Positions 13,500 through 36,825 of a stretch of 64,000 nucleotides of DNA are shown here, one piece after another; the first letter of the stretch is position 1, and every line of letters begins with the position of its first letter. Below the pieces are notes generated by a model that was given only the letters and a program-made list of their open reading frames with translations, made no database searches and was not told where the DNA came from. The stretch is from Tribonema minus (taxonomy: Eukaryota > Sar > Xanthophyceae > Tribonematales > Tribonemataceae), in contig JAFCMP010000171.1 in assembly GCA_017506865.1 (NCBI GenBank), positions 56,942 through 120,941 of the forward strand. The letters run 5' to 3'. Position numbers and translations under genes: made by a program.

Positions 13500-15290
13500 G
13501 AAGCGATGTTACCGCCGCAGCGTACCGTTGCTGTCATCAAGGCGATTACACCTGCGGCAGGACAGCACAGCGCTATACATCGTTTGCGGTTTGCGATTTG
13601 CGATTACACCTGAGTCCTGAACGTGGACAGCATAGACAGCATAGCGCTTAACGTCGTTTGCGGTTTGCGATTTGCGATCACACCTGAGTCCTGAACATCT
13701 GCGGCAGCACAGCATAGCGCTATACGTCGTTTGCGGTTTGCGATTTGCCATTAGTCCAGAGTCCTGCAACCTGCGGAGACAGCAAAGCGCTATACGTCGT
13801 TTGCTGTTTGCGGTTTGGGATTAGTCCTGAGTCCTGAACATCTGCAGCAGGACAGCAAAGCGCTATAGTATCACGTCGTTTGCGGTTTGCGATTGGCGAT
13901 TAGACCTGAGTCCTTCACCCTGCGGAGACAGCAAAGCGTTATACGTCGTTTGCGGTTTGCGATTTGCGATTAGACCTGAGTCTTGAACATCTACAGCAGG
14001 ACAGCAAAGCGCTATAGTATTACGTCGTTTGCGGTTTGCGATTTGCGATTTGAGACCTGAGTTCTGCAACCTGCGGAGACAGCAAAGCGCTATACGTCGT
14101 TTGCGGTTTGCAATTTGCGATTAGACCTGAGTCCTGACCATCTGCAGCAGGACAGCAAAGCGCTATAGTATTACGTCGTTTGCGGTTTGCGATATGCGAT
14201 TAGACCTGAGTTCTGAAACCTGCGGAGACAGCAAAGCGCTATGACATTGTGTCGTTTGCGGTTTGCGATTTGCGATTAGACCAACATGCGGAGACAGCAA
14301 AGCGTTTTACGTCGTTTGCGGTTTGCGATTTGCAATTAGACCTGAGTCCTGAACATCTGCGGAGACAGCAAAGCGTTATACGTCGTCTGCGGTTTGCGAT
14401 TTGCGATTAGACCTGAGTCCTGAACATCTGCAGCAGGACAGCAAAGCGCTATAGTATTACGTCGTTTGCGGTTTGCGATTTACGAGTAGACCTGAGTTCT
14501 GCAACCTGCGGAGACAGCAAAGCGCTAAACGTCGTTTGCGGTTTGCGATTTGCGATTAGACTTGAATCCTGAACATCTGCTGCTTGATCAGGACAGCAAA
14601 GCGCTATACGTCGTTTGCGGTTTGCGATGTGCGACTAGATTTGAGTCCTGAACATCTGTGGCAGGACAGCATAGCGCTTAAGGTCGTTTGCGGTTTGCGA
14701 TTTGCGATAACACCTGAGTCCTGAACATGGACAGCATAGACAGCATAGCGCTTAACGTCGTTTGCGGTTTGCGATTTGCGATTACACCTGAGCCCTGAAC
14801 ATCTGCGGCAGGACAGCATAGCGCTATACATCGTTGGCGGTTTGCGATTTGCGATTACACCTGAGTCCTGAGTCCTGCAACCTGCGGAGACAGCAAAGCC
14901 CTATACGTCGTTTGCGGTTTGCGATTTGCGACTAGACCTGAGCCCTGAACATCTGCGGCATGACAGCAAAGCACAACACATCGTTTGCGGTTTGCGATTT
15001 GCGATTAGGGTGAGTGCTGAACATCTGCTGCAGGACAGCAAAGCACTATACGTCGTTTGCGGTTTGCGATATGCGATTAGACTTCCGTACTGCAATCTGT
15101 ACTTAGACTGCACGTCGTTTGCGGGTTGCGATAGGCAATCAGACACGTCTTGCAAAACTGTGTGTGGACAACAAAGCACTACACGTCGTTTGCGGTTTGC
15201 GATTTCCTGTTAGACCTCCGTACTGCAATGTGTATTTCAATGGTAGCACTGCAGTCGTTGGCGATATGCGATTTGCGATTAGGCAGTCAA
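13500..15290. repeat. minisatellite, ~24 units of 60-80 bp
   Basis: Each unit contains three heptamers in a row, TTTGCGG TTTGCGA TTTGCGA, followed by a TTAGACCTGAGTCCTGAAC-type segment and ACAGCAAAGCGCTATA. Cores recur every 60-80 bp, for example near 13582, 13660, 13732, 13874, 13944, 14024, 14096, 14176, 14250, 14310, 14383, 14459, 14529, 14609, 14683, 14757, 14830, 14907, 14981, 15052, 15114, 15185 and 15254. Between about 13900 and 14530 two spacer types (CTGCGGAGACAGC and CTGCAGCAGGACAGC..TAGTATTACGTCG) tend to alternate, giving a ~150-bp higher-order dimer. The ORFs here are repeat artefacts. Confidence 0.95.
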
Positions 15291-15800: not shown

Positions 15801-17495
15801 TCATTTCTCAAGAAAGTCTACATGCTCGGAGTCCAGCATGGCACGCATTGCGGTCAGCTGCTTTCGTTTGAACGACTCCAGTCTGGCTGGCTCTTCAGCG
15901 TTTGTACGACTGTTTGCATCCGACTGCTTGTTGTCATATGCAAACTCTCTGGCCGCGCGCTTGCGCCTATTGGCGTCCGACCTTTGCGCATCTCGCGGCC
16001 TCGTCATGGCAGCTTCGGCCTTTCGCTGTACATTTTGCTAAGTGTCTTTGACCTCTCTACACCCCACATGTATTTCCACATATTATTCGGCGGCGTCTGC
16101 GTGACGACTAAGCGCTGCACCGGCACTTCGTCAGGCACTCCGTGTTGCGCGCGTTGGGTTGGATCGCAGGCTGAGCATCATCGCCTGTGCCAGGCACTGT
16201 TCACGCCGTGCACGCTGTGCAATCGCGGCTGATCACTGACGACTTCTACTGCCATTTGATCACAGTCAAAGTGTACAGCTGTCTCGGCATCAGGCACCAG
16301 CGTGCCAACTGCAGTTGGCAGTTCTGTTGCTGCTGCGCGTCAAAGCGCGAGCTGAGGCGGGTTATCTCACGGCGCATATCGCCGAGCCGCTGCAGCTTGC
16401 CGCTCTGTAACTGCTTATGTGTCCCTGCATACCCTGATGCTGCGCAAGGCTCATCACGCCTGTCGCTTGCTGCAGGTTGCTGGTGGGCCAGGCCTTCGAG
16501 TTGCACCTTGAATGAGTCTCATTCAATCCGCTCATCCGCGACCCTGAAACTCAAAAAGCAACCGAGCACTTATGCTATAGTAAAGTCTCCAGGGCAGAAC
16601 AGGTGTTGAAGTTGGGTAATGGCATGCTGTAGCCCTATGTCAGGGGCATCTGCTGACTACTCACTTGTTGAAGTTGATGTTGTTCCTGATGTGATATTGT
16701 ACTTCAACGGTGATATTCATACTTCAACTTCATGCCAACTTCAACTGTCATATCACTGCTCAGCGTCAAATAGCACGGCTCCACCCGTCTCAACTTCAAC
16801 AACCAACAGCTCTTCTGGTGCGTCCAAGTGAGGCCAAGAATCTACCATTATCAAACTTCATCAGTTTGAGTGTCTTGACTGACTTCACTATAGCATAAGC
16901 GCTCGGTTGCTTTTTGGGTTTCAGGGTCGCGGATGAGCGGAGCGGATCTCAGACCGGGTTGCTCGCGCAGTCCACCTTGTCACCCATGTTCGCAGCAGCG
17001 GCAGCGGCGCACAGCGCGCGCTTGCTGGGATATCTGCACCTTCAGCATGTCCAGCCTGCGCTTCCACCGTGACAGCTTCCACCTGAGCGTTGCCCGCCTC
17101 ATGGAGCGTGCCCTGCTCTGCTAACTCGCGGCGCAGCTGGAGTTCACGCAGCGGCCCCACAGTCTGCTGGATCTCGCCCATCATGGGCTCGTTTTCCTAG
17201 ATGCGCAGTCCCTGTTCGCGTTGGGGAGCGCCTCCGCAGCCATCTTGAACCCCTGCAGGAAGCCATCACCGCCGCCGCCGCCGCCGTAGACGTTACCGCT
17301 GGCGCGACGGCGGCTCGATTCTCCGCCGTACGTTGAAGGCGGCGCTGTGCTCGCGCCATCGCAGAAGCCACCTGCAATGGATATATTGATACTGGGCGAC
17401 GCCAATGCGAGCGCCTGCGGCGCCGGCGCTGCCATGGTGTTAATCGGCTCGCCTATTCTGAGTGGCACGCCGGCGCCCGTTATCTGAGAAGCCAC
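15801..17495 (-). pseudogene. degraded coiled-coil ORF, family copy 1
   Basis: Minus-strand coding-like stretches appear in several frames. An N-terminal piece at 17181-17495 (MASQITGAGVPLRIGEPINT) has a Gly run. Helical pieces follow at 16921-17184 (RELQLRRELAEQGTLHEAGN) and 16246-16506 (QRLGDMRREITRLSSRFDAQ). A basic C-terminal piece lies at 15801-16007 (MTRPRDAQRSDANRRKRAAR). The sequence from about 16330 down to 15840 is clearly homologous to 54790-55250 on the plus strand (shared QREQCLAQAI-type block), so this is a dispersed family. The MITE copy at 16525-16947 sits inside it. I do not recognise the protein; high helix and Gln content suggest a coiled coil. Confidence 0.5.
16525..16947. 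mobile_element. MITE, copy A
   Basis: About 423 bp, ending in inverted repeats CCGCTCATCCGCGACCCTGA on the left and the complement TCAGGGTCGCGGATGAGCGG on the right, each followed inward by AGCAACCGAGC/GCTCGGTTGCT and TATGCTATAGT/ACTATAGCATA. The interior is rich in TTGAAGTT/AACTTCAA. It is almost identical to copy D (60420-60856) and related to copies B and C. It has no coding capacity and its mobilising transposase is unknown. Confidence 0.9.
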
Positions 17496-18483: not shown

Positions 18484-18747
18484 TTGAAATGAACACTGTT
18501 TTGTAGCAGTCAGGTTGCACTTGAAGTTGTGCACTTGACGTTGCAGTTTGTTCGAGATCTGTTCGAGATCAGTTCGAGATCTTTTGCATGGATGACTCAG
18601 CAATCCTGAGCTGGAATGCCCAGGCTTGCTGTGCTTTGTAATATCACTTCCTTTCCTACACACTAGCACGTGTGTGTGACTTGTTGCTGTGATGGCTCAA
18701 GCTCAGGTTTCTCTGCACGGTGATTTGCGCGATGTCAATATTGCAAC
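18484..18747 (+). repeat. copia left LTR
   Basis: About 264 bp starting TTGAAATGAACACTG and ending ATTGCAAC, nearly identical to 22965-23227. It contains a short tandem TTCGAGATC run. Confidence 0.9.
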
Positions 18748-18750
18748 GGT

Positions 18751-19318
18751 TATGAGCCTTAAGCTCAAGCTGAAGCTAGAGTTATTCGACGGCAAGGAGG
18801 AGGATTGGCCTATGTTCGCCAACGCGTTCGAGTCGGCACTGCTGTGCGAAGGAGTCCCGGCATGCATGGTGCAATGGGGAGAGCAGTTCGACGTTGGGCT
18901 GCGGGTCAGCAACCAGCGCGTCTACGACGAGCTGGACGTCAGGATTTACTCAGCGTTGGTCGCCTGCGTGTCCCGCAAGGCGACTGACGTCCACTACATC
19001 CTACTACGCGACGGGAACAACAGGCACGGAAGGGAGTTCTTCAGGGCGTTGCAGCGGAGGTTCGAGCCGAGGAGCGTCAGTACGGCCATGGCAATATCGG
19101 ACCAGCTGCACTCTCTGGAGATGGGGGAGCGCTCGGTGGCGGAGTATTTCGGTCACGCGCGCTACCTGCGGTCCAGATTGGCCACGCTGGGCATAGCGAT
19201 GGCTGATGGCGAGCTGCTGCTGCTCTTGTTGCGGGGTCTCCCCAACACGGAAGGTTACCGGATGGCTCTTGTTGCGGGGTCTCCCCAACACGGAAGGTTA
19301 CCGGATGGTGGCTACTAA
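18751..19318 (+). CDS. copia gag region
   Basis: Frame beginning MSLKLKLKLELFDGKEEDWP just after the left LTR (an upstream in-frame ATG lies in the LTR). The pattern of a KL.LFDG..W start, a YDELDVRIYSALVACV helix and an LEMGERSVAEYFGHARYLRS block is typical of copia gag (UBN2-like), which forms the particle shell. Part of a fossil element. Confidence 0.75.
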
Positions 19319-22300
19319 TCTCCGGTGCATGCCACGCATGGACTTGGATGAGGCGGAGCGGCAGCTCAAGGCGCACTACGACGCGGAGGTCGCAGCTGCG
19401 AGGACCGGCAAGGGCGCATCAGTCTTTGCAGCACAGGTTCCAGGCAAGGGTCTGGACAGGAGCGTGCCTCAAGTTAAGGGCGCGTGTCATTGGTTTGGGC
19501 GCGTAGGTCACTGGGCCTACGAGTGCAAACAGAAAAAGGCCGGCAAGAAGCCGGCGCCAGGGTCAGTTGCGGCAAAGAGGTCCTTGGCGAAGCAGCAGCG
19601 TCGTCAGCAAGAGGCAGGCGGCGAGGATCCTACACGGGCTTGCATCGCTCGGGTCGGAGAGTCGCAGGGTGAGGGCACAGCTTTAGCAGCAGCTGTGCCT
19701 CAGCAGCAGCAGGCGTCTGGCGATGTCTACATATACGTCGACAGTGGAGCAAACCGGCACATCATTGACCCTTTGCAGCTTGGGGTCGACTTGAGCTCAG
19801 TAGTTTCAGCATGGCGGCCCGATCGTATCCCGGTGGAGACTGCTCATGCTTCAGCTTCTGGGGAGGTCACGGTGTCGGTGGGCGTAGCCGACTTGCACAT
19901 CAAGGTGCCAGTCAAGCACGGGCGCGAGGAGCAGCTGCTGGTGCGGGAGGGAGTAGTAATTCCCGGGTCAGGACAGTTACTGCTCAGTGCCTCACTTCTG
20001 ACCAAGCATGGCGGCAGTGTCATTCTCAGCAAGCATCACTCCAAGTTAATTCTGCCGGGAGAACCTCGCGAGGAGGTACGTTTGGAGCCCTTCGGAGGCC
20101 TTTTCCGCTTCAGGGTGCGTCTGGACCGCAAAGGCGCACAGCTTGCTGGAGGCGGTAAGGAGGGCGCAGCCGCTTATGCAGCGAAGGTCTCTCTGCAGCG
20201 ATGGCATCAGCGGCTGGGGCACCTCAACCTGGCGGACATGCGGAGGCTTGCAGATACGGAGGGGAGCGGAGTTCAACTTCCAGTTGGGGAGCTGGAGCCT
20301 TGTGAGACCTGCCATTTGGGCAAGGCAGCTCACCAGCCGCACCCCCCTCAGGCCACACAGGGTGCTACTGCCAAAGGACAGCTTTGGCACTCGGACACGG
20401 CCGGGCCCTACGAGGTGGAGAGCCGCAACAGGAGCCTCTACGCTCGGGTGTTCATCGACGAGGTATCTAGGTACCATGTAGTTTACTGTCACCGGCACAA
20501 GGGTGACCAGGTGGCACACGTGGAGCGGCTGCGCGGGGAGGTACTGGCGCCTGCAGCGGTGCATATGCACGAATTGCACATGGACTGTGCAAAGGAGTTC
20601 ATTAGCGCAGATCTTCAGGAGCACGCGCGCTCGGCGGGGTACTTGCTCAGCCACTCTTCGCCGCACACTCCGGAGTCCAACGGCATCGCTGAGCGGGCTT
20701 GGCGCACCATCAACAGCAAGGCCCGCTGCATGCTGCAGCATGCCTCCCTCCCACTATTTCTATGGGAGCATGCAGTGCAGGCGGCAGTGTACCTCATCAA
20801 CAGGAGCCCTCATTCAGCCATAGGGGGGCAGACGCCGTACGAGGCGTGGACGGGCAAGGTGGCGAACCTGGAGCACATACGGGTGTTTGGCTCCTATGCG
20901 TACGTGTGCGCGGAGGGCGAACAGGGCAAGATGACCAACAAGGGCTGGCGCGGGCGGCTGGTCGGCTGGTCAGAGTCTGTTCGCGGAGGATACCTTATCT
21001 ACAACGAGCGCACCTGGCAAGTAGTGGTCAGCAGGAATGTCACCTTCATAGAAACGCCCGGAGAGTCGCCTGACACAATTGACGCGCCATCAGTGGGGGA
21101 GGGAGAACAGCAGCAGCCTCAACCTACTGGCGCGCACGCAGCAGATGCAGCAGACGCAGCAGCAGATGCAACAGATGTGGAAGCAGCGGAGCCCGGGGAG
21201 GGCGCCCGAGTAGCACCTGAGGCGTCGCGTACGCGCAGCGGGCGCGGTTACTCGGCTCAGCCTGCCGCGAGATTTGCTGCCTTGGCGGAGCAGGTGCCAG
21301 CAGACCCCAAGTCGTACAGGGAGGCTGTCTCGGGCACTGATGGCGGCAAGTGGCGGGCGGCGTGCGATCGCGAGATTGCGGAGCTGCAGGGCAGGGGCAC
21401 TTGGAGTCTCATTCCACGCAGTGAGGTGGACGTGGGCGCCAAAGTGCTTGGCTGCACTTGGGTCTTCAAGACCAAGTTCGGCGAGCAAGGCGAGGTTGTT
21501 CGTCACAAGGCGCGGCTAGTAGTGCGGGGCGATCAGCAACGACCCGGCATCGACTTCGACGACGTCTACGCGCCCACCGCAGACATCAAGTCACTACGGT
21601 CTGTTGTGGCGCTAGCTGCTCATCACGGCTGGCAGCTACACATCTGCGACGTCATGAACGCGTTCGTCCAAGCCGACATCGACAAGCCTACATTCGTGCG
21701 GCAGCCGGAGGGCTACGTGCAGCGCGGAGCAGACGGCGAGCCTCTTGTGATGCAGCTGCACAAGGGACTTTACGGCTTGCACCAGAGCCCAGCGCTTTGG
21801 CACAGGAAGCTGATCGACTTTCTGCTGGAGCACGGCTTTGTTCAGTCACCGGCGGACGCTTGCGTGCTGCGCAACTGCAGCAACGGAGTCATCGTGGTCA
21901 TCTACGTGGACGACGTGTTCACAACGGGCAGCACGGACAGCGGCGTGCTGCAGGCGACCGTTGACCTCATCGCCAGCGAGTTCGCCATCAAGGACCTGGG
22001 ATTTCCCACGCGGTTCCTCGGCATCAACTTCACGCGCCACGACGACGGCAGCATCACGCTCTCGCAACCAGACTACATCAACACGCTGCTGGAGCGTCAC
22101 CACCAGCTAGGCGCGCATCCGGCACACACCCCAGCGGCGACAACGGCTATTGCAGCAGAGGAGTTAGCGCAGCTGGAGGGAGCTCAGGTAGCAGAGTACC
22201 AGAGCATGGTTGGCGGACTGCAGTGCATAGCCACTTGCACGCGGCCGGACATCAGCTTTACGGTGTCGCAGCTACAGCGGCACATGGCGCAGCCCAAGCG

Positions 22301-22856
22301 GTGCCACATGGAGGCAGCCAAGCGCGTGCTGCATTACCTGATGGGCCACCCCACAGGTATCACCTACAGGCGGCAGGAGGGAGCGCAGCTGCAACTGGTC
22401 GGCTATGCGGACGCGTCGTTCGCCAGCGACAGCTCTACGCGGCGCAGTCAGACCGGCTACGCGTTTCTGCTCTGCGGAGCGGCGGTAGTTTGGCGCTCGA
22501 AACTGCAGCCTTGCGTCACGCTTTCTTCAACGGAGGCGGAGTACGTGGCGCTTTGCGAGGCTAGTAAGGAAGTGCGGCCTTTGGCGCAGCTGCTGGAGTT
22601 TCTTGGCGCGGAGCAGGGGGTGGTGCGCATTATGGAGGACAATGCAGCGGCGATCCATTTAGCTGCGGACGCAGGTGCCTCGCAGCGCACTAAGCACATT
22701 GATGTAAAGTACCATTATGTGCGCGAGCAGGTGCAGAACGGACTAGTATCAGTAGAGTCAGTGCGCACACAGGAGCAGCATGCAGATGTGCTGACCAAAG
22801 TGCTAGGCGCAGTTCAGCACCACTTCCACATAGCGGCGCTTTTGGGCAGCGCATGA
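19206..22856 (+). CDS. copia pol polyprotein
   Basis: About 1216 codons. Visible parts in order: zinc-knuckle-like GACHWFGRVGHWAYEC; aspartic protease IYVDSGANRHII; integrase with HQRLGHLN..ETCHLGKA zinc region and the D, D, E core (LWHSDTAGPY, LHMDCAKEFI, ESNGIAERAWRT); reverse transcriptase from WVFKTKFG with VVIYVDDVF; RNase H with GYADASFASD, SSTEAEYVAL and KHIDVKYHYVRE; and a HADVLTK end. These are the standard copia enzymes for copying and inserting the element. Gag and pol overlap in different frames; the family is usually expressed as a single polyprotein or by read-through. Confidence 0.93.
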   Translation: MASCCCSCCGVSPTRKVTGWLLLRGLPNTEGYRMVATNLRCMPRMDLDEAERQLKAHYDAEVAAARTGKGASVFAAQVPGKGLDRSVPQVKGACHWFGRVGHWAYECKQKKAGKKPAPGSVAAKRSLAKQQRRQQEAGGEDPTRACIARVGESQGEGTALAAAVPQQQQASGDVYIYVDSGANRHIIDPLQLGVDLSSVVSAWRPDRIPVETAHASASGEVTVSVGVADLHIKVPVKHGREEQLLVREGVVIPGSGQLLLSASLLTKHGGSVILSKHHSKLILPGEPREEVRLEPFGGLFRFRVRLDRKGAQLAGGGKEGAAAYAAKVSLQRWHQRLGHLNLADMRRLADTEGSGVQLPVGELEPCETCHLGKAAHQPHPPQATQGATAKGQLWHSDTAGPYEVESRNRSLYARVFIDEVSRYHVVYCHRHKGDQVAHVERLRGEVLAPAAVHMHELHMDCAKEFISADLQEHARSAGYLLSHSSPHTPESNGIAERAWRTINSKARCMLQHASLPLFLWEHAVQAAVYLINRSPHSAIGGQTPYEAWTGKVANLEHIRVFGSYAYVCAEGEQGKMTNKGWRGRLVGWSESVRGGYLIYNERTWQVVVSRNVTFIETPGESPDTIDAPSVGEGEQQQPQPTGAHAADAADAAADATDVEAAEPGEGARVAPEASRTRSGRGYSAQPAARFAALAEQVPADPKSYREAVSGTDGGKWRAACDREIAELQGRGTWSLIPRSEVDVGAKVLGCTWVFKTKFGEQGEVVRHKARLVVRGDQQRPGIDFDDVYAPTADIKSLRSVVALAAHHGWQLHICDVMNAFVQADIDKPTFVRQPEGYVQRGADGEPLVMQLHKGLYGLHQSPALWHRKLIDFLLEHGFVQSPADACVLRNCSNGVIVVIYVDDVFTTGSTDSGVLQATVDLIASEFAIKDLGFPTRFLGINFTRHDDGSITLSQPDYINTLLERHHQLGAHPAHTPAATTAIAAEELAQLEGAQVAEYQSMVGGLQCIATCTRPDISFTVSQLQRHMAQPKRCHMEAAKRVLHYLMGHPTGITYRRQEGAQLQLVGYADASFASDSSTRRSQTGYAFLLCGAAVVWRSKLQPCVTLSSTEAEYVALCEASKEVRPLAQLLEFLGAEQGVVRIMEDNAAAIHLAADAGASQRTKHIDVKYHYVREQVQNGLVSVESVRTQEQHADVLTKVLGAVQHHFHIAALLGSA

Positions 22857-22964
22857 TTGCAGTTGTTGTTTAGTGGCAGCGCAGAGTAAGGCACCAGGCT
22901 CTGTCACGGTTGTCATTTCAGTTTTGACAGTCAAGCTCATGGGAGTCTTGACTGGGGGAGGGTA

Positions 22965-23227
22965 TTGAAATGAACACTGTTTTGTAGCAGTCAGGTTGCA
23001 CTTGAAGTTGTGCACTTGACGTTGCAGTTTGTTCGAGATCTGTTCGAGATCAGTTCGAGATCTTTTGCATGGATGACTCAGCAATCCTGAGCTGGAATGC
23101 CCAGGCTTGCTGTGCTTTGTAATATCACTTCCTTTCCTACACACTAGCAGGTGTGTGTGACTTGTTGCTGTGATGGCTCAAGCTCAGGTTCCTCTGCACG
23201 GTGATTTGCGCGATGTCAATATTGCAA
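22965..23227 (+). repeat. copia right LTR
   Basis: About 263 bp, ~99 % identical to the left LTR. Confidence 0.9.
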
Positions 23228-24281
23228 CACACAGCTGCAGGTATGAGCAAGGGAATGTTTTTTTAATTGAACAACGGAACCACGTCTCGCAAACTGCAAC
23301 TGAGGGTCAATTGGGCATTCGGGTGGCACCACATCGTGAGGTGAAGCGCAAATACGGCGTTTCAATGCACCAGAGTTGCTGTTGCCATCGGCAGTCATCC
23401 ATGAGCCTGCTGGCAAGTGAAGCACTGATGCCCAAGGTGAAGTTAGCTTCTTGTGAAGTTTATACTTGACCCCATTCCAGGTACGAGCTGTTTTGCGGTG
23501 TGCCGTGCACTTGTAGTGAACGAGACTGACGCAGGTGAGCCGGCAGCCCCATGCAGCCCCCAGCGAAGTCGCGCTTTACAAGAACTTCAACACAGTACAA
23601 CAAAGTTGCCGCACACGAGTACGTAGTGTTAATCTCAGAAGGGCCTTCTCTAGCACATGCGTAGTGTCAGTGTCCACTCCTCCTATCCTCCTCCCACACA
23701 CGTTGCTTCACTCTTCGGCTTCATTACACTCCATGATTATGGCTTACTGGACTCCTTCTGGTGTTGCGTTGTCTTGCAGTGGGGCAACAGTATGAGGATG
23801 GCTGAGCCGGTGGCCAAGGCGGATATTATTAAGATGGTGGAGCAGCGTCCTTATGCTCGTACCGCCAACTTCTTCGGCTGCGCTCGCTCCCAACGCGTGC
23901 GGCTAGGCCCTACTGGGTCATCATACTCTATTATGATATGTGGCTGCCATCACTGGTGTCGGCGTTGCGGGGTTAGCACTCAGGCCCTTGTGATGTCTGT
24001 ACTGCTACTGCTAGCGTTCTGTGTGTGTTGAGTGTCAAGGATTCACCTCATGGCCGGTGCTGGATCTGTCATGAGCAGCCGCTGCGCAGGGGAGCGACCT
24101 GCAGCGAGCATCAATCGATCAGGCGTCAATATGCAAGATGACGTTTGAGTGCATCAGTCCTGCGTCTGTTCGTGTCCTTGCTGCACGAATTCAAAATCTG
24201 AGGTAGCTCAAACATCACGAGCGCTGCCACCTGATGTTGATTGCGTGCGGCTGCCACCGCACCTGCATTGCACTGATTACG
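23228..24281. other. no firm gene; one exon-like segment
   Basis: Mostly featureless. At about 23780-23935 an intron-like acceptor (GTTGTCTTGCAG) is followed by an open frame containing MRMAEPVAKADIIKMVEQRP and YARTANFFG, which reads like an exon of an unidentified gene, but no partner exons were found. Confidence 0.3.
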
Positions 24282-24287
24282 CTTCAC

Positions 24288-24333
24288 CCCCGGGGTCCAA
24301 GCTCCCCTCCCCCCCCCCCCCGGCTCCGCGACG
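24288..24333. repeat. left terminal inverted repeat
   Basis: Perfect match to the right end over the first 20 bases, then a C tract interrupted by one T, then CTCCGCGACG. CTTCAC precedes it at 24282-24287. Confidence 0.85.
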
Positions 24334-24825
24334 CCAAAACCCCCTCTCCCCCCCACTTCCTATTGCGGCCTATTATCAACACCCCTGACCTATTAGAGGG
24401 TGTTTTTGAACAGCTCTCAGTGTGTAGAGTGCGATGGTGAAGTCAAATAAAAAAAAGGATTCGATGTTGAGGTTTTCCCCAGCGTCCAAACTTTGCCCCT
24501 GCGCAAGCATAGCAAGGGTGGCCTCGCCCTTTTACTCGACATAGGTGTAGCACACTCAAGGCACACATCTTAAGGCGATGAACGGCCATTCACAACAACG
24601 AGAAAAGCCATGTTTGCATTAGCATGCTGCTATAATGGTATTGGCCTTGCCGGGAGCTGAATCGCTGAACACCTGATGACATGTGGACACCACATGATTT
24701 GCAATGTAATACTACTATGGCACACACAGGGCAACAAAATGACAATGTATTCTTCATTGCTCATGTTACATAGTAGTATAAAAAGCACTAAAGCAAGCTA
24801 TGGCATGCAGCTGCAGCAGCAGCCA

Positions 24826-27800
24826 CTATGTGTGGTATTGCACAGCGGTGATCACTCGGTCGCGCGTACTAGTGGTGGTGCGCGTTTCACGTCCGTCGTC
24901 CGCCATCATCTGAGACCGCTTGCGTTTGGCCCTGGTGCCACTGGCATCACCACGCGGCAACTCGCTTTGTGCAATCTCAGCAATGGCAGCATCAAGCGCA
25001 TCTCTGTCAATCTTGCTGAGTACGTACTCGAACGACTCGGAGCCATCAGCACCCTGCACCGCTTTGGACGTCAACGTGATAGGGGCCAACACATGCGCAA
25101 TGTCATAGCACTGATGATCGGGCTCGTTCAAAACGTAAACACTGTCCACGTCAGGGCCGCTAGTGTCAGCTTGCGTAGCTTTGTACCAGTGCGCAACCAC
25201 CACGATCGTGCCCTCATAGCTGTCGAGGTCAACTGGCTCTCTGTACTCGACTCTACGACGACCTGCAAGCTTGATCAAACGCTGCACCTTGCCAAGCCAA
25301 AAATGGTATGGCTGTTGGCTGTTGCGGTTCTCCGAGCTGTTTTCGAATATCATTGCAAAATCGCCTTGCAGACCCAGCATGCGTCGCTCACGCTCCAGTG
25401 CCTGCAGCATCACAGCACATTACAACAGGAGAAAACAAAAAGCGTTACTACATAATTGTATGGAGATACTTTTTGTGCAATGAGCAAATATGATATCACA
25501 AACATCTTCCATGTTACAGTATTTGAAGTGTAAAGTTAGAGTCAAAGTAAATAGAGCACCCATGCAAATGGCACTATCTCGGTACGAAATATGAACATGG
25601 GTTGGCAGAACAATCATTCCCATACTAGCATCACAAGTCCACAAATCGCTACACCGCGTACTTGATTTACTGTTGCAGATGTACATGTGCATACAGTTCG
25701 AGTACATAAAACCGCGTTTGTCTGCCAGACCACAACTTCCGCAGAAGCTCTCCTGGAAACACACACTCAATTCCACAACATTCTGATGTGCGCATAACAC
25801 CACTCAATTCCACAAGGTTCTAATGTGCGCACAACACCAGTATGCATGTACCAACAGTAAAGAAAAATATCACCTGCAATGCATGTACCAACAGTAAAAA
25901 AAGATCACCTGAAACACTGTCCGCTGGCTCGGTGCTCCGCTGGTCCCTTGAGTGACACGGGTCAGCCGGTCCTTTGAAAGCTTGGCACCAGGCTTGACAT
26001 GGTTCAGCTCCGACACCAGCTGCTGTATGGAGACAAGCCCACGCTCTGGAACCTCGACGTGAGGACAAATCTTCGTACGGCTGCTCGAAGGCCCCGGCCC
26101 CCCCTCGCACTCGATGGTGACCATCGCAGGCTCGCCTTCCGTGGGCGCATCACTAATGGCCTCTGTGATGAGCGTGTCCACAACGGCGCGCAACTCGCTG
26201 CGTGCGTTGTCGCTGTCGCGGCTTATGCCGCCAACAATCACCTCCTGCTCCACCCCCAAGTCATCCTCAACCACATCAAATGTGTGAGTCGCCAGCCCTG
26301 GATGATCACTGAGCTCCTCATCACTAGGCTGAATGGCAGCCAACGCCTTGGCTCCCAATGTGTGAGGATGATCCGTTTCATCTCCATCGTCATCGTCTGT
26401 GTCAGACTCCGAGCGCAATGATGGCGCATCGTCTCTGCAAAGGCAAGCAAACATAATGGTTAGCTGCTTGCATTGCATGGTAGTATCCGCTCATGATATT
26501 GTGAGACTTCAGTGCACGTCATGATGGTGCTGCCAGTGACATGCTGAATGTGCCATGCATAAGCTTACCATAGAGCATGCGATGATGGGCGTGCGGTCAC
26601 TGGCAGTAGTCTGCATCAGCAAAGCAGTAATCACGCTATGCAAGTCCACAGAATGCAGCGGCACTTCAAAGTGGACTGCAGCAACACTTATGGTGTACTT
26701 GTAGTCTAATAGGCAAAGATTGGTGTAACAAAAGGGATGGCCTCTATCATCTCCAAAACGATGCCAGCACCGCTGATTGTATAGTATCAAACATGATGAT
26801 TGGATGATCTAGGGATGCTGCGCATGCGTGTTGAAGAGCACGGTCACAAGCGTACCATTTGGCATGCATGCATACCTCGCCGCTGTCGCTGGCTGACCCC
26901 GGCCCGCTTCTGGTAGCGCCGCACTGCGGATAGGCGCCTGTGCTCCAGCGGGCCTGTGATAACAGTGGCATCGCATCCTGTGTGAACATGTGCAGAGTGA
27001 GCAAACCATTCAACAAGTTGTCCTGGGTCATGGTAGTTTTTGCCTGCATTTCTCCCTTGTTCAGCCCCTAGAAAGACGAAGCTAGTACTACCTGTGGTTC
27101 GCCTGACGACATCACATAGGCTAGTGCTACGGAACCACAAAAAAAACAGTTACGATCACATTGAACTACAGCAGCACGCACCTGTTAGGAACTGCAGGAA
27201 TGGTGTTCATGGGCGCCTCGTGTCCCTGATCATCATGGTCTGCTGTCCGCATGTGCAGAAGTGCTGTCTCCTCTTCTGCCCATGGCTCAATGTACCACTG
27301 ATCGGCCTCCGCAAATGTTGAAGGCAGAGCTGTAGGAAATCCAGCCGGCGGTGAGAGCAGGTGTTTCAGGGATGGGGGTCTAATGCCCAAGCTCCAGGCA
27401 AAAGTCGTTGCTCGCTGCTGACCAAGCGTCCATTGTAGTGTCAGCTCCGCGTCGCTGCAAAACCAGGCAACACACATGTAGGCCTTCCAGAGTTCATCTG
27501 ACTGTAAAGCTGGGTAGGAATAACATTTGATTGAGAGTACGTACTTCTCAGTACATCAATAGCGAGCCTATGAGTACTCCAATAGCTTGAAGGCCTGCCG
27601 CCAACTCATTGAAAGCAGATGCGCTTTGAAAGCGTGGGTGTCATGCCCATGTTGCATCACTTGTGTATGAGGCACGAACTCTAAATGCCACCACCGAAGC
27701 ACCACCCTTTGCACAACATCAAGAGGACGCATTCTCAGCTGACAATGTGTAAAAAGGCAGGATCTAAAGCTTCACACACATCGTTCCGCTGTGAAATGCT

Positions 27801-30800
27801 ACAGCAGTTTTTTGTATCATTTCCTCACCTGGGGTACACTGTGAGATCTGCAGCAGCAGGATGCCCATCAGCACCATTGTCATTGCCAGGCATGGCATCC
27901 TGCAGCACAAATGGCATAGCGAGAAAAGGTACATGGGATAAGGTGGCATTGCGCAATTTGCAGGAAACTTAATCCTAACCCCTGTGTTGCTGTTATCAAA
28001 AATCAAAATCTGCATACAGTGGTGCAGCTTTTCACATCAAAGTGTAATGGTGCGAATTAGCCATGGCAGAACACATGAAATGACTCCGTCTGTCAATGTA
28101 GCGGATTTACTGACCTTGTGCCACACATCACACAGTTTCTCATGGCTGCGTTTCTTTAGCGGCGCATCAGGGTTGCACATCTGCTCTTCCACATGCCAGT
28201 ACTTTGGCACCGCGCGCAAGGCATCGTGGTGTGTGTAGATGCGTTGCATTGTAGATGATGCGCCGCTTCCGCAGAGCTCCGAGAACACCTTCTCACAGCA
28301 GTCGCTGCCATCTTGCATGAGAGCACAAGGCAGCCCAGGGGTGAAGTCCCGGAAGAACCTGTGCAAAGCGCAGTGCCACACACACACACATGTTACCATG
28401 GCAATCATGAAATTACAATAATCTGTACATGGTTACATCCTGCAGAACATGAAAACACGGCAGACCCCGCAGAGAGCTAATGAGGGGTGTTGGCATCTGA
28501 GATCTACTGAGCGTACATGCGCAATCATATATAGTGATGCACACCTGATGTAGAGCTGGTCATAATTCATTGCAAAGGACGTACAGCGTCATCATAAATA
28601 CAGCCTCAGCAGAAGAAAGAAGGGCACCTGATGATGAGGATGACGTTGTGCACAGAGATGGTGATGTCCTCATAGCACTCCCTGCTGATGAAGTTCGCTT
28701 TCAAGGTGAGCCGCTCCGCGCGTAGCAGCCAAGAGCGCCACAACCGCAAGAAGTGCAGCACAAATGATGCTGCTTCGGCTCTCTCAGCCAACGTCCAGCT
28801 GCTGCTGAAGAACACCGACACGTAGTTCCAGATCACCTGGGCAACGTGCACATTGAGGCTCTTGAGATCAATGCAAAATGGACCCTCAACTGCAGTGGTA
28901 TGACACTGATTCGGCATGGCATACGCCTGCAGTATGGTACATGCCCCATGACAGCACTGCGACAGAGCTCTTCGATGACAGTAGCGTTCGCAAAGCCAGG
29001 CAGGCACACGCGCACGCATTGCCACAGTATGCCACACAAGCCACTAGCAGTTGCATATCCACGTTTAAGGCAGCTTGAAGCCTGCGCGCGGAGGTTGCAC
29101 GCAGCTTTGAAATGGTGATTCGATTTGCAAGCAGTGCTTGAAGCACCTGCGGTGTTATGCGGCCAATCCTATAATAGACTTTACTTCTTACTGCTAAAGC
29201 TAAGGCCTATGATGATCAGTCTGTCCCTGATGGCGCTTGTTGCTTCGACTAGAAATGCACATGTACCTCAAGGTAGGCACTGGTCCCATGTGTGGGTGTG
29301 CCGTGGCGACTTGCAAGGGTAGCAAGGCCTGCCCTTACTCTCCTGAAGGCAAGGCGTTGGCAAGCCGCCCAGTTTTGCCTATCTGTGCGCTCGACGTCGT
29401 TCGCACGGAGCCCGTGCTGCGCAAATGGGAGCTGGTCAAACACGGCCTTAACGTGGCTCATGTGTGCCATGTAATCACCCATCGCCAGCACCCGCGTTGC
29501 AGAGTCCAAGGGGTTCATCAGCTTCTTCCCGTTGTGGATTGGGTCCTGCGAATGGATGCCACGCACTTCCCCACCTGCAGCAACATGCGCGAGACCGTAA
29601 AGCTATAGAGTGAAAAATGAGCATTCGGCAGGCTGTAAATTACCTAGTGGCAGCCTGAGACTCATACATATGCAAGGCCTGAAAAATCAATACACAGTGC
29701 TTTTTTAACCTGGTGTTGTGTACCTTGTTGCCATGCACTGAACAGGAAGCCTGGTGCTGGCAGGTAATATCTGCTGCCGCGCTCCCCAGATCCTTGGGCA
29801 CGGTAGTCCTCAAGCTGCAGTTTCCGCCTACGAGCATCTCCATCCGACGCATGGCCAATCAGGGGGCCCAGCGCATGCAGCAAATGCGTGCGCCACAGCT
29901 CGGCTGCATGTGTCCATTGGCTGCGCACAAAGTCTGCATCGAACCTGTTGCACACCGCCTGCAGAAAAACCAAGCCAAAGCGCGCGTCAGTGTCAATATC
30001 ATGGCTAAGCAACAGATATTGTCGTCAGTGTTGTTGTGATTTAGCGAGGTTCAACGTGTTGTGTTACGTTTGAGATGTCCAATAAATTAAATATCACAAT
30101 GGCGGCAGAGATGCCGTAAACATTTATACCAGTGCAGCAACCTGCAGCATTGTCAGCTCCAGCGGCATATAATATAGTGACAGCAATATGTATGCTCCAT
30201 ATATATGATGCATCACTTACCTGTACCATGACACAGAGTTTTGGCAGCTGTGAATGCAGGGGGTTGATCACCATGACTCTGCCATAGCCCCCTCGTTTCT
30301 TGCCTGCAAACGCCTGCACGATGACATCGTAGCCGTCACCTGCACACAACCATCAACATTTGCAACAGTGCACATGAGATTGTAACAGGTGGTACTCATA
30401 CTGCAATGTTAGACTCGTCTCGTTGAGGTGTTTGAAGTCGTGGCATAGAATGCAAAAAGTACTGTGTCTGATAAGCTAATGCATATTTAACGGTCTCAGA
30501 CAACTGTAGATCAGCGATAGATCATAAAAATACCATCAGGTCCAGGTGGCAGGTCGACGCGGACACCATCCAAGCTGCAGGTGTGGCCGTCGCCTTCGTC
30601 GCCGCAGAAGCCCACCAGGGTGTTTGAAGCTAGGTCAAATGTGACGGAAGAGTCGATCTTCGTCTCGTCCTCTGACATTTGCGTAGGCACAGGCCCAATT
30701 ATGCCCTTCGCCTCCTTCAGGCGCTTGTACACTGCTCCCAAGCGCTTGAACGCTTCCGGGTTCAAGGACCCTGTGTAGACATACTGTGCATCAGAGAGAA

Positions 30801-33800
30801 CAATGCGCACATCAGATTGGAAGCATGAGCATTGCAATGGAAGAAGCATTGCCATACCAGGCACATCAGAGTACCACCACTGTTTGCACTTACGCCAGTG
30901 CGAAGGCCCTTGCGGACAGTCTCCACAGTTGGCCCACCGATGTTGAGCTGCAGAAGCGACGTGACCCTGGGCCCTGCCCAGAATAGAAGCACCTGGTACA
31001 GGGCATGTGTTGATGGTGACCACCTGCACAGTGTCAGGCACACGTAAAATGATTGATGTTAAAGGCTGGTAGCTTACATTGACCAAAGATGTGTGTAGCC
31101 CTTGAAAGCCAGCGTCGGCGTTGTGCCGTCAACTGTTGAGAGTACAGTGCGGCAAACTAATGATCATGCTCTCTCCGCATGCCTTTCAGGTGCTTGCTAA
31201 TCCATGCGTCAAGTCAGCCAAGTTTCGAGTCAGCCTTCAGCATTCATGCAGGCACCAGTACACCAAGTGGCGGCTACACCTGCATATTCAAAGTTGAACT
31301 TGAAGTTCGAGATCTTGTTGCCACATCTTGCCTGTTGCCTGACGCGCCTGCAGCATTCATATTCCGCGCGAGGTCCCTGATGAAGTTCATGAGCACTGCC
31401 TGATCAGCGCCTAGTCTGCCGCGATCATACGCGCGGTTGAGGTCATCAACGATTTTACGCATGTCGCCGCGACCAGCTGCCGCCTCCAGACGTTGCCGTA
31501 GACCGAGCACCTGCACGCTCTTCCGGCAGATGACGGTGCTCTGCCGAAACAGCTGCACCAAAGAAGACCGTATAACGTGTAAGCGGAAGAAGCTGATATG
31601 ATACAGATACATACAGATACACATCTGGGCAACAGCGTGCTGCAGCTCACCTGGTACCTGAGCTCACGATTATCTTCGCGCAACTTGCGTGCTCGATCTA
31701 CCAGTTCAGGCCTGCCCATGTACCTGTACGAATGACACACATGGACAGGGCTCGCAAGTCAAACGAAAAGTGGCGTTGCTCGATTTACCAGTTCAGGCCT
31801 GCCTAGTACCTGCACGAATGACACTCAAGGACAGCCGACTCGCAAGTCAAACGAACGTGGCGTTGAGTGACAGAAACCAAGTGCAGTGATATATATGAGG
31901 GGTTCCAAGGAAACTCAGACATAGTACCTACCTCATGTTTTTGTGGCTCCCATGCGTAGCCTGACCCGCCTGCCTGATCATCCGTCTGCGGAAGTCATCC
32001 AACTTTGGAATAGATGCGCAGTAGCCGCACATGCCGTGACCAAAAGCTGCGTTGGCATCGGTTTGGATTCGCAAGCACTTGCGGTGTCGCACAGTCCCAC
32101 GCAGCAGTAGCATCTTTCCTTGGGTGTCGTCACCGTCAACATCCTCATCAGACGCCACATAAATGGGATCTGCCTCCGAGACAAGGTCGTCGTTGGAAGC
32201 TCCGGCAGCGTCAGTCTCCTGCATGTACTGCAGAAGAAAAGCTGGCGCTGCAGATACAACGGCCAACAGTAAGCATACAATGAGAAAGCACATACTAAGC
32301 GCACACGTACAACCCCCATAATATGTTTTAATGCGAACAGCGACGTACATAGTGTATGCCGTGTGCTGCTCACAATGTGCCACAATGGCCAAACGGCCAT
32401 ATTTCATGATGTAAAGAGCATACATCACATCTGGTTGTAAGCATACATAAAGTATATGCATGGCACATCCCTCATATCCTATAGTGTACGTATGCTTGCA
32501 TGTGTGAAATGTGAAATGAGGGTTTTGTTGGGCTGTTGTGCAGTTCAGATACTGACATGACCCGCATATGCACCGCTGTGTGCTAAGTATACCGAGTCTC
32601 AAATTGCCAAACCAAGTGATCAGTAAGCATGCAGTGGGCGACTGTCGTTGAAACTGCATACATTCTGTCGGTGGCGTGCATCGGATTCAATTTGGGTGTA
32701 CACTACAGCTATAGCTGGGCCTCTGTGGCTCCACGGTATTCCACACATAAAGCGACAGTCGCTACAATATGCAATGTCGTGCCTATGAGGTGCTACTTGC
32801 CTGGCTCCTCCACCGGATCGATGTACCACTCTGCTCCTGCTAGTCCGCTGTCCTTCAGTGGCTGCACGCTGTACTCCTTGCTGGCGTAAAAATGTTTCTG
32901 CCTGTACCAGCCGAAGCACAGTTGCCTCAGTCCACGCTCCCTGCCATGCATGCATCAAATCACATGTGATTTGGCTAAGTGGCAGGGTACGTGGTTCTAT
33001 GAGCACCATTGACTGTGATCGCTCAGCAAGTGCAAGCGCTTGCAATAGAGTGGGCAACAAGCAAAATGCGCCTCTTATACTCATCAGCAGTGGCATGCAT
33101 CATGCATGTATATGCAGCTGTAGAACAAGCAATCGCACTAGTATCATGTGGCTGGCATATGCAATGCCACCATCAACAATGCCGCTGCGAGTGGTCATAG
33201 GGGCACCGCATCTGCATTGTCACCTGCTCACAGCTAGCCCAGTGTCATCAGCTGCTGCTGCTTTGAAGGGCAGCTGCGCCTGCCTCAGGCCACTTGCAAC
33301 GTGCTGCTGGTGTCTCTCACTCCGGACGTGCTCCTTGCAACGCTGCTTTGCGTCTAGGCACTCATCCATGAGTGCCGGCAGAGCCAAGCAAAAGCCATCA
33401 AAGCCGCATGCTCTGTCCCTGATGCAGCTGGGGCACCGCACCTGTCGCCCTTCCCTATCCACCACCAGGTGCCGATCTAAGTCTGCCACATACGCCTCCA
33501 AGCCAAGCCATTGCTGCTCCTCTGCATCAGTGCGCCGTACATGAGTGGGCGCAGCGGGCGCTACCTCCATGGTTGTATCCTCAGAACCCGCCGCGGATCC
33601 TGCACGCAATGCAGCATACCAAAAAAAAGACCAGTAGGAAACAAAGTGAGTGCCACTGTAACGCATGCATGATAAAATGGGTCTGTTTCAAATCATTGCT
33701 GCTTCAGAACGGCATTGATCACATGAAGTACGCGAAATGCTGCTGTTCACAGCAGCCATACCTGGTGGCACGTGGTGCATTCGATGAGTCACAGATGTCT

Positions 33801-34629
33801 CCAACAATACTTGTGTTGATGACGTGATCAGTGTCGGCAAGCGAGTTTAAGTGGCACCAGCTGCGCTTTGTGGCAAGCATTGCGCAGCTTTCTCCTTGTG
33901 ACTGCTATAGACATCAATGACAAGCAGCTGACATTCCTTACCAGTACAAAGCACGTGTTTGCGTTAAAAAGTAGTGCTGTTGGAGGCACGTTGCGTTGAA
34001 GATAGTGCTGGCCGAGACAAGGCACCCTGTTGCTTTCCGCTTCAATATGCCGTCAGTGGCAACGTTCAACACTTGCCTTCATCATCAGCACTAGCATCCC
34101 TGAGTGTGCCAATGTTTGACGCCAGAGGTACTGGCGCAGCTGCAGCCGCGCAATGCTGACACTGTTGCTGGCGCTTCTGTTGTCCTGGGGTCCCGATGTG
34201 CGCCTTGAAGTTGGCCAATGACGCTGTTGCATGTATGGCCGGTTTGGGGGTGCCACCGCTGGAGTAGACTTTCTGGCAGCATAGGCAGAGGACCTCAAAG
34301 GCCTTGTTCAGCGGATCCTCCTGTCTGTATCCTGCACGCTGCTGTATCCTAAAGTGCTCAAAGCCCAGCCCTTGCGGCGGTGGTGGGCGCACTAGCTGCT
34401 CCGCGTAGCTCTCCAAGCCAGCAAGAAAATCTGGATCAGCACACGACAGAAAGCATGCACGCCTTCTGAGGAACGGCAGGCACTACATTCAGCAGATTCA
34501 ACAAGTTGCTACATACTATACCCCCCTATTGGTGAAACGCCATGCACAAACGCACAGCGTTCTACATGACAGCAACCCGAACAAGCGAAAACTACACAAC
34601 AAAAAACGATCTCAGGTGTGCTGTTGCTG

Positions 34630-34662
<33 letters not shown>

Positions 34663-35093
34663 CTGCTGCTGCTGCTGCTGCGTCTACTGCTCAATCTGCT
34701 GCTGTACTTGCCTGCTTTGGCGCCTCCGCCTGCAAGGCTGAGCTCCGCCAGCTGCACTCGGGTGTGGCCTTGATATGCAGGGTTGCCTGTATCGTGCAGC
34801 GCAGGGCCGCAAATGCTGCAGAACACCTTTGTGCACTCCTGGCAATATTCCACCCCTGCCGTCCCATCGCAGCTGCCGCACCCACTGGCTAAAAATAGAC
34901 TGCGGGCCCCAGCACACGCATCCGCATTGCTATGGACCTTCTCGCAGCACACACGGCAAAGCGGTCCAAGGGTGCCTTGTGATGAGGCAAAGCGACATGG
35001 AGTGCAGATTTGCAGCAGCACGGGGTCCTGTTGCTGGGTGCACCAGACACAGGAGATGAGCACGGCTCCTGCAGAATGAGCCTGTGCTGCCAT
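24826..35093 (-). CDS. P-element/THAP9-like transposase, 19 exons, 1622 aa
   Basis: Exons (plus coordinates, transcribed right to left): 34712-35093, 34077-34430, 33224-33599, 32801-32940, 31932-32247, 31651-31711, 31332-31552, 30894-31023, 30534-30783, 30221-30339, 29724-29958, 29267-29574, 28628-28836, 28115-28358, 27829-27899, 27182-27454, 26876-26953, 25909-26434, 24826-25401. All phases agree and no stop falls inside. Parts: two B-box-like Cys/His modules (exon 1); BED-like Cys/His segments (exons 2-3); CGYC...FRRRM (exon 5); helical KLREDNRELRYQ (exon 6); LNIGGPTVETVRK (exon 8); EDETKI and LVGFCG (exon 9); GHASDGDARRRKLQLED (exon 11); SQDPIHNGKKLMNP (exon 12); SDCCEKVFSELCG (exon 14); a Lys/Arg-rich C-terminus. 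The D..D..(D-P-x-H)..E order fits the RNase H fold of P/THAP9 transposases. Introns after exons 1, 2, 4 and 7 begin GC. Exon 17's acceptor is the least certain; an ATG at 35127-35129 is an alternative start. Confidence 0.75.
25842..25908. repeat. tandem duplication spanning the intron 18 donor
   Basis: GCATGTACCAACAGTAAA...CACCTG occurs twice, ~37 bp apart, so a second decoy 5' splice-site copy sits inside the last intron. Confidence 0.6.
31687..31868. repeat. 91-bp tandem duplication of exon 6 edge
   Basis: The block from GTGCTCGATCTACCAGTTCA through TGGCGTTG is repeated once with several differences, copying the upstream half of the 61-bp exon 6 and its acceptor into the preceding intron. 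Confidence 0.75.
34618..34706. repeat. CTG/CAG trinucleotide tract in intron 1
   Basis: Interrupted (CTG)n of about 85 bp next to the GC donor of intron 1. Read through without splicing, it would encode a Ser run on the minus strand. Confidence 0.85.
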
Positions 35094-35266
35094 ATTTACC
35101 CTCCACCGCCTGTCACCTACCCATGACACCCACTAACTCAAAGACCTCGGATTCGAGCAGATCTCATCCAGCCGAATTCAACGGTGGTACTGCCGGGTGT
35201 TAGTTACATGATTAAGCGAAGTTAATAGACTTTCAAGTTTCAAGGCTCATTTACCCCCCCCACTCC

Positions 35267-35312
35267 CGTCGCGGAGGCAGGGGGGGGGGGGGGGGGAGCT
35301 TGGACCCCGGGG
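35267..35312. repeat. right terminal inverted repeat
   Basis: Reverse complement of the left end; contains a 17-base G run (35280-35296). CTTCAC follows at 35313-35318. Confidence 0.85.
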
Positions 35313-35318
35313 CTTCAC

Positions 35319-36825
35319 CGACAGTGTGCCCCCTTGGAATCCAGAAGTGGCAGCAGTGGATCTGTTCATATGCCATATCCTTGCTTGCTAGCAAACAAGA
35401 CACAAAGCCCAAAGCTGCTGGCAAAAGTGACGTTATGATTGCGAGGTCATAGGCTTATCGCTAATGACTCTTTCCTTGTGTGGTGTTGTAGCAGTTTGAC
35501 GTTGCATGTAGAATGTACAGTACCACGGCTTATGTGTGAGTTTAGACCGGTTTTGGCTTGCGCAAGAGCTGCCAGCACAGTCAAGTCAGGTGGAGATATC
35601 AATGAATTCAAATTCATTGCTGTCCTGTGATTTGTCACGGAATGCATGTGCACTCAATGCAGCTCTCCTTCTCCGAAGTGAGACTCAAACGCAACACGCC
35701 CCCCCCCCCCCCCCCCCCCCCCTTCAAACTGCAGTCAACATCACATAATCAAGCCAAACTTAGGGTTGCCCTGCCGAAAAGCATGCTGGTCCCGTATTGA
35801 ATCAGGTTAATGGAGGCCTGGGTCACCTTTGACAGTGCCCAGAACTGAGGACTATGCCAACACGTCTGAATCATATCTGTAGGAGAAATGATCACAGGGT
35901 ATCAGGCGCTTGTGCTGAAAGAACTAGTCCTGGTGCTGCGGGAGGTCCAACCCAACCCCAACAAACCCCACCCAAGCCTCACCCCGTCCCCACTATTCCA
36001 TTCCGCTGCACCAACGCTCCTCTCCGCGAGCAGGCCAGCGTTAACGTAAAGGTCACCCACCCATGTCGCTGCCATAATGGTCCCAGTTGCATTCAGGCCA
36101 GGGTACACAAACCACTGGGTACCAGGCACATTGGTGTCTCAAAGGAGCAGCAACAACACACACAACTACTGCAACAGCAGCAGTAGCAGCTGCAGCGGCA
36201 GCAGCGCCAACAGGAGCAACAGCGACCACGGTGGCAGCCGCAGCAGCAGCAGCAGATTCAGCGGCACTAAATGCGGGAGGGGCGGCAACAGGCTGAGCAG
36301 AGGTGGCGCCAGCAGCAACACTGGCGACCACGCCAACGGCGGCAACGGCAGCCGCACCAACCGTAGCCGCAGCGGCCAGCTCCGCTAGTGCTGCCACAGA
36401 CGCTGAGGGGCGCAGCCACTGTGCTTCTTAATGGTGGCAGCATCGCTGCCTAAGCTGGCGCAACTACTCAGCCGCGCGGTTGCGCCGCTCCATGATGGCG
36501 GCGAGCGAGTCGCGCTGCGTCGTGCGGACGCCTCCTCAATAGGCCCCGCGTCCGTTGCCGCGAGCATGGTTTCTTGCTCTTGGCGTTCACAGTGACTGCG
36601 GTCGGAGATCCTTGCCCCAAGCATGACCCTGCCTGCTGAACCCCGCATTTCGGCCCCGGGCCAAAACAGTTGGGTTAGCGCGGGGGTCAAGCCCTAGGTA
36701 ACATCCACTGGGCGCCCACGAACACTTGCAGTCACTAGGGCGCGCCTGTCCCTAGGGCACGTGACAATGTACGAATCTGGCACAGTTAATGAACTAGTCG
36801 GTATATGTGTATGTATAGCTTTTCG
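35319..36825. other. intergenic: dispersed repeat, poly-C, low complexity
   Basis: 35450-35800 holds a copy of a dispersed segment also found at 54150-54700 and 61895-62490. A 24-base C run lies at 35699-35722. 36130-36400 is GCA/CAG-rich and yields spurious Ala-rich or Gln/Ser-rich frames on both strands. A minus frame at 36385-36690 (ERQEQETMLAATDAGPIEEA) is weakly coding-like and unidentified. Confidence 0.45.

Follow-up and report, generated by a model that had tools for sequence, protein, structure and literature searches.

We interpret the element described here as a cut-and-paste DNA transposon that is P-related in lineage, structurally complete and young (probability about 0.9). It occupies positions 24289-35311 (11,023 bp) of the window, by which we mean the whole 64,000-nucleotide stretch of Tribonema minus DNA that was analysed, as delimited by terminal inverted repeats (TIRs), a target site duplication (TSD), an empty site and further copies. 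The inverted arms, at 24288-24333 and 35267-35312, are 46 nt long and 93% complementary, in keeping with the TIRs of the P superfamily. The initial annotation had proposed a whole-looking 11-kb DNA transposon with 46-bp inverted termini; the element and its arms are borne out, but one base of each arm belongs to an exact 8-bp duplication, and the limits were therefore set to 24289 and 35311. The two copies of this duplication, GCTTCACC, lie at 24281-24288 and 35312-35319 and are identical. Between them, the left TIR (CCCGGGGTCCAAGCTCCCC..., 24289-24333, plus strand) stands on the 3′ side of the gene and the right TIR (35267-35311, minus strand) on its 5′ side, both defined by comparison of the arms and by the TSD. 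CTTCAC, noted on both sides in the initial annotation, is the inner part of GCTTCACC.

The age of the insertion can be judged from a second contig of the same assembly, C479, which aligns with about 3 to 49 kb of the window as a series of collinear blocks, individually 83-98% identical. A single GCTCCACC without the transposon stands at the insertion point there, and 487 of the 519 columns aligned over this junction are identical. Most simply, the insertion took place after the window locus and C479, be they haplotypes or duplicates, had separated. A copy of the family is present elsewhere on C479, where its exons match the window gene; the TSD sequence of that copy was sought in the window and not found. 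When the 20-nt terminus was searched against the 158-Mb assembly, its two exact matches were both ends of the window element.

Searches with both ends and the core protein, of the kind suggested with the initial annotation, recovered at least 11 family loci in the Tribonema minus assembly in addition to the clean empty site on C479. Both termini were located at five loci, namely the window copy, C62, C178, C112 and C538a (C529 lay outside the TIR scan), and the TIR pair, whose absence from other copies would have spoken against the transposon, is thus present at four loci beyond the window. Exact 8-bp TSDs flank three of the five, the window copy (GCTTCACC), C62 and C178 (CTCCATAG, GTCTTGCC), while a matching 8-bp TSD was looked for at C112 and C538a and none was found. 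C62 (4,196 bp) and C178 (4,531 bp) are both internally deleted and have ends of the same kind. C538a is divergent; it covers most of the protein, has four stops within matching segments and contains roughly 6 kb of extra DNA in mid-element. The 3′ terminus of C538b and a TIR of C190 were sought and not found.

The gene runs on the minus strand from 35093 to 24826 and comprises 19 exons encoding 1,626 aa, with one terminal stop and none internal. Splice phases are consistent at all 18 junctions; donors are GT in 14 cases and GC in four (three GCAAGT, one GCAAGA), and 18 of 18 acceptors are AG. This reproduces the 19 minus-strand exons and agreeing phases first proposed, and the open frame closed by one stop also stood, although not the count of 1,623 codons including the stop (1,626 aa against 1,622). 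Taken in order along the minus strand, exon 1 (34712-35093) encodes an N-terminal Cys-rich module (C15..C60) and a B-box-like cross-brace, as judged from the model and ligand conservation, and exons 2 (34077-34430) and 3 (33224-33599) encode candidate modules proposed from the model and copy comparison, the former of Cys/His type and the latter with the pattern C-x2-C ... H-x5-H. Exon 4 (32801-32940) precedes exon 5 (31932-32247), whose C...CxxC stretch is common to many relatives. A predicted coiled-coil segment falls in exon 6 (31651-31723), its equivalent being helix 3-49 in the model of the relative P0038; exon 7 (31332-31552) is followed by a GC donor, and exon 8 (30894-31023) contains the helix-turn-helix region (AGPR..GGPTVETVRKGL) placed by profile alignment. 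The RNase H domain begins in exon 9 (30534-30783), where profile alignment and motif patterns place SEDET and a CG..H.C insertion, and continues through exon 10 (30221-30339) and exon 11 (29724-29958), with ASDGDARRR in the latter, to exon 12 (29267-29574), which by profile alignment holds D-x2-H (D876, H879) and in which the helical insertion domain (DRQNW) starts. The insertion domain occupies exon 13 (28628-28836), the acceptor of which (gcccag followed by GTGATCTGG) was picked from homologues, and the second RNase H half (GSDCCEKVFS) is in exon 14 (28115-28358). After exons 15 (27829-27899) and 16 (27182-27454) comes the least certain, exon 17 (26876-26953, about 26 aa), which was placed by splice consensus and phase and is covered by no other copy; exon 18 (25909-26434) supplies the acidic C-terminal part, and exon 19 (24826-25401), backed by homologues, the C-terminal domain and stop. 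Around the exon 6 acceptor there is a short tandem duplication (31726-31812) that repeats the beginning of the exon, in slightly altered form, 86 bp upstream.

That the agreement of phases is beyond chance, as had been argued, is supported by homologue joins, tblastn segment ends and codon constraint. Aligned proteins of relatives span the core joins, roughly exons 5 to 14. When the protein was compared by tblastn with ten other loci, 17 of the 18 junctions had a segment end no more than 3 residues away, and 46 of 96 segment ends fell within 3 residues of junctions, as against 7% of positions. Junction 11, with no segment end near it, is spanned by two segments, and at junctions 7, 10, 12, 13 and 18, too, at least one segment runs past the join by more than 5 residues. 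Two other gene models were discarded: an automatic exon path of 27 exons, several of them judged spurious, and a hand path of 20 exons and 1,690 aa. The 19-exon model was adopted because homologues showed the latter's extra exon (29146-29045) and early start of the next exon to be wrong. The Pfam, PDB phmmer, first family search and homologue alignment all used the 20-exon query, which carries up to 64 extra residues.

Transposase codons are under constraint between copies. With overlapping segments counted twice and stop codons excluded, dN/dS was 0.18 against the divergent C538a (1,473 codon comparisons; dS 1.14, near saturation), 0.20 against C529, 0.27 against C479 and C323, 0.30 against C62, 0.36 against C290, 0.40 against C178 and 0.46 against C112; the value of 0.67 against C538b (248 codons, dS 0.06) points the other way. 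Constraint of this sort would also suit a transposase that had been domesticated as a host gene and kept only old ends around it, but several copies, a TSD that is perfect, ends resembling one another and the empty site at the homologous locus point to recent mobility, and we give the host-gene reading next to no weight.

The transposase of this transposon appears to fold like Drosophila P transposase, the evidence for the fold being a model of the relative P0038, which stands in for the window protein. The predicted structure of P0038 matches P transposase 6p5a over residues 70-574. In it, a strand at 345-348 is followed by helices and two short strands across 350-520 and then by a helix at 534-546, giving the mostly helical insertion between RNase H strand 5 and helix 4 that is expected of the P superfamily. 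Profile alignment, the window protein included, puts D, D, E and D-x2-H at the P positions: D703 (SEDET; codon 30667-30669) aligns with DmTNP D230, D826 (SDGD; 29842-29844) with D303 and E1060 (28292-28294) with E531, all codons being on the minus strand. The aligned positions of the GTP contacts discussed below are consistent for five master sequences, with realignment confidence of 7-9 at those sites; one alignment made without realignment misplaced D303 in the window row. A coiled coil and helix-turn-helix also lie upstream of RNase H in the profile alignment, with helices in the P0038 model, and for the coiled coil the profile is the sole support because it lies outside the fold match (70-574). 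The P-element-type RNase H fold of the initial annotation, and the structure prediction proposed as its check, thus find their support in the P-type core of P0038 and in the aligned acidic residues. Resemblance to Drosophila P (PDB 6p5a, 6pe2) covers the order of coiled coil, helix-turn-helix, split RNase H and mostly helical insertion, the positions D230, D303, D339-x2-H342, D528 and E531, the 8-bp TSD and the existence of internally deleted copies. Vertebrate THAP9 and zebrafish Pdre2 are likewise similar, with a P-type RNase H and D, D, E plus [C/D](2)H (excerpt of PMC8230255). Structural similarity to Transib transposase and RAG1 is far lower than to P, and the Transib-containing clade has TSDs of 2-5 bp (excerpt of PMC12730594) against 8 bp here.

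Target duplications of 8 bp are usual in hAT and in Zisupton of KDZ (excerpt of PMC12730594), and giant KDZ elements occur in Ectocarpus (excerpt of PMC12477816), so another superfamily with 8-bp TSDs, P-like in motifs only, has to be weighed. The ranking of folds speaks against this reading, and the Hermes-like fold and hAT C-terminal domain of a hAT-type transposase were looked for without success. In a viral fold library the one match at E up to 0.001 was a Pandoravirus hAT-like protein (E 3.6e-4, TM 0.24-0.25). We consider such a superfamily very improbable and retain the P-related assignment.

Sequence profiles recover this relationship poorly. Each of the Pfam models PF21787, PF21788 and PF21789 matches 26 of 26 P proteins in our comparison set, which is arthropod-heavy and was hand-picked among 120 matches listed of 156. 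Among 44 relatives, PF21787 at E up to 0.1 matched two, with a best E of 0.012, a weak match at most, and PF21788 and PF21789 matched none. The P profile search proposed as a check therefore returned a faint signal in relatives but none in the window protein, the 20-exon model of which matched no P model at E up to 10 and no transposase model. Searches of PDB did not name P transposase by phmmer (20-exon query) and did not list it by family profile; PF21787 had no match in the whole genome, where controls were equally silent. It is conceivable that the family is already a P family in Repbase and missing only from Pfam. Among the literature matches listed, however, no title or abstract start concerned a THAP-less or algal P lineage, and the DNA-transposon rows in the excerpt of PMC12477816 on Ectocarpus have no P entry, with 51 DNA families unclassified. 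On this basis we think a prior Repbase entry unlikely, though well within reach.

Two protein searches yielded 78 distinct family records (P0001-P0078, some partial). P0001 is a Tribonema minus record, a hypothetical protein, which we infer to be the C479 copy. The family names include Riccia sorocarpa, Riccia fluitans and Calypogeia fissa, which we take to be liverworts, and a Bigna1 label, presumably Bigelowiella natans; the lineage extends over a stramenopile alga, liverworts, other protists and metagenomes. Motif patterns recur across 77 records: EDET in 63, SDGD.RR in 65, QD..H in 70, GSD..E..FS in 63 and CG..H.C in 67. None of the 78 records has a precomputed P-model domain, so the family probably goes unnoticed when algal and liverwort genomes are annotated. 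Viral contigs gave 27 pattern matches, with no relative among them. In a tree read without support values, a long branch carries the window protein close to the base, a placement to which we attach no weight. Two relatives end in a PTM/DIR17-like Tudor domain (P0004, 1066-1119; P0007, 1160-1217) and one of 44 has a BAH match, and chromatin-reader domains may have been added within the transposase lineage.

The N-terminal region sets the window protein apart from Drosophila P: by Pfam it has no THAP domain, it carries several Cys/His modules, and there is the CG..H.C insertion in RNase H. No THAP finger was matched in the window protein (20-exon model) at E up to 10, and the listed domain families of 44 relatives include none; THAP was found in 11 of 26 P proteins of the comparison set and is present in THAP9. 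It had been suggested that two B-box-like modules replace THAP. One is conserved, its ligands C72, C75, C84, C87, C92, C95, H100 and H110 being kept in seven of seven covering copies; the further modules are Cys/His candidates. The Pfam zf-B_box match of exon 1 is sub-threshold (E 1.4). A structure predicted for exon 1 by itself was poor (pLDDT 51.8), which leaves the spacing and conservation of Cys and His, together with this match, as the basis for the B-box idea.

A further departure concerns GTP. The excerpt of PMC7776569 describes the use of GTP as a trait that P transposase shares with no other transposase or integrase, and gives D528, K385, K400, V401, S409, F443, D444 and N447 as the GTP contacts that P elements conserve. 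In our 26 P proteins the counts are K385 24, K400 11 (R in 9), V401 26, S409 26, F443 21, D444 23, N447 26 and D528 26. In the aligned columns of 70 relatives and the window protein (n=71; profile alignment, no superposed coordinates), position 385 is G in 59 and K in 4, position 400 is N in 69, 401 is W in 60, 409 is F in 27 and S in 18, 443 is I, V, M or L in 65, 444 is D or E in 52, 447 is F, L or Y in 44 and N in none, and 528 is D in 63. The window protein keeps one of the eight contacts, D528. Some of the replacing residues are themselves strongly conserved (DRQNW), and GTP dependence may be absent in this P-related lineage. A P-related transposon still using GTP in a rebuilt pocket is a somewhat doubtful alternative: D528, the acidic residue at 444, S409 in its minority and an R-Q pair before K400 persist, so part of the pocket survives, and the helical insertion domain is present, but most members have other residues at K385, K400, V401, F443 and N447, and the fly contacts are stated to be conserved in zebrafish THAP9 (excerpt of PMC10983969). 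We put at a little under even odds the hypothesis of a deep P-related lineage transposing without GTP, in which the insertion domain was kept with its own conserved surface (DRQNW). If so, animal P elements would have acquired their GTP dependence later, or this lineage would have lost it. Such a relative, alike in predicted fold and catalytic core but with most of the pocket replaced, would allow direct comparison for GTP use; the window offers a complete copy, recently inserted and with both ends, as such a test needs.

By analogy, the transposon would work like a P element. The coiled coil would dimerise the transposase, by homology to P transposase, and the helix-turn-helix and N-terminal Cys/His modules, as a THAP substitute, would recognise both ends. 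The RNase H site of D703, D826 and E1060 would carry out two-metal cleavage of the ends and join them to target strands 8 bp apart; this spacing and the precise ends of the insertion are demonstrated by the TSD and the empty site. The helical insertion domain would position the ends as in P transposase and presumably holds no GTP in the manner of that enzyme, since most contact residues are replaced, partly by strongly conserved ones. The P-type interpretation originally offered is thus supported by fold, catalytic alignment, TSD and TIRs, and we file the element as a P-related lineage, distinct from P elements sensu stricto because THAP and the Pfam models were not matched and most GTP contacts are replaced. 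It is also large: 11 kb and 18 introns, where Drosophila P has 2.9 kb and four reading frames (excerpt of PMC7776569).

The window holds other features of note. A predicted tRNA-Cys at 6132-6212 has an unusual anticodon (aca) and is possibly a false call. An LTR retrotransposon at 18484-23228, of Ty1/copia type as judged by eye from its ORF, has 264-bp direct repeats that are 99% identical and a long open frame at 19197-22856, and is absent from the homologous C479 locus. A minisatellite at 13548-15082 (73-bp unit, about 21 copies) is matched by the homologous C479 stretch, and a repeat of about 430 bp occurs at 16527-16948, 56826-57261 and 60419-60861, all three matching C479 near 434 kb and 447 kb.
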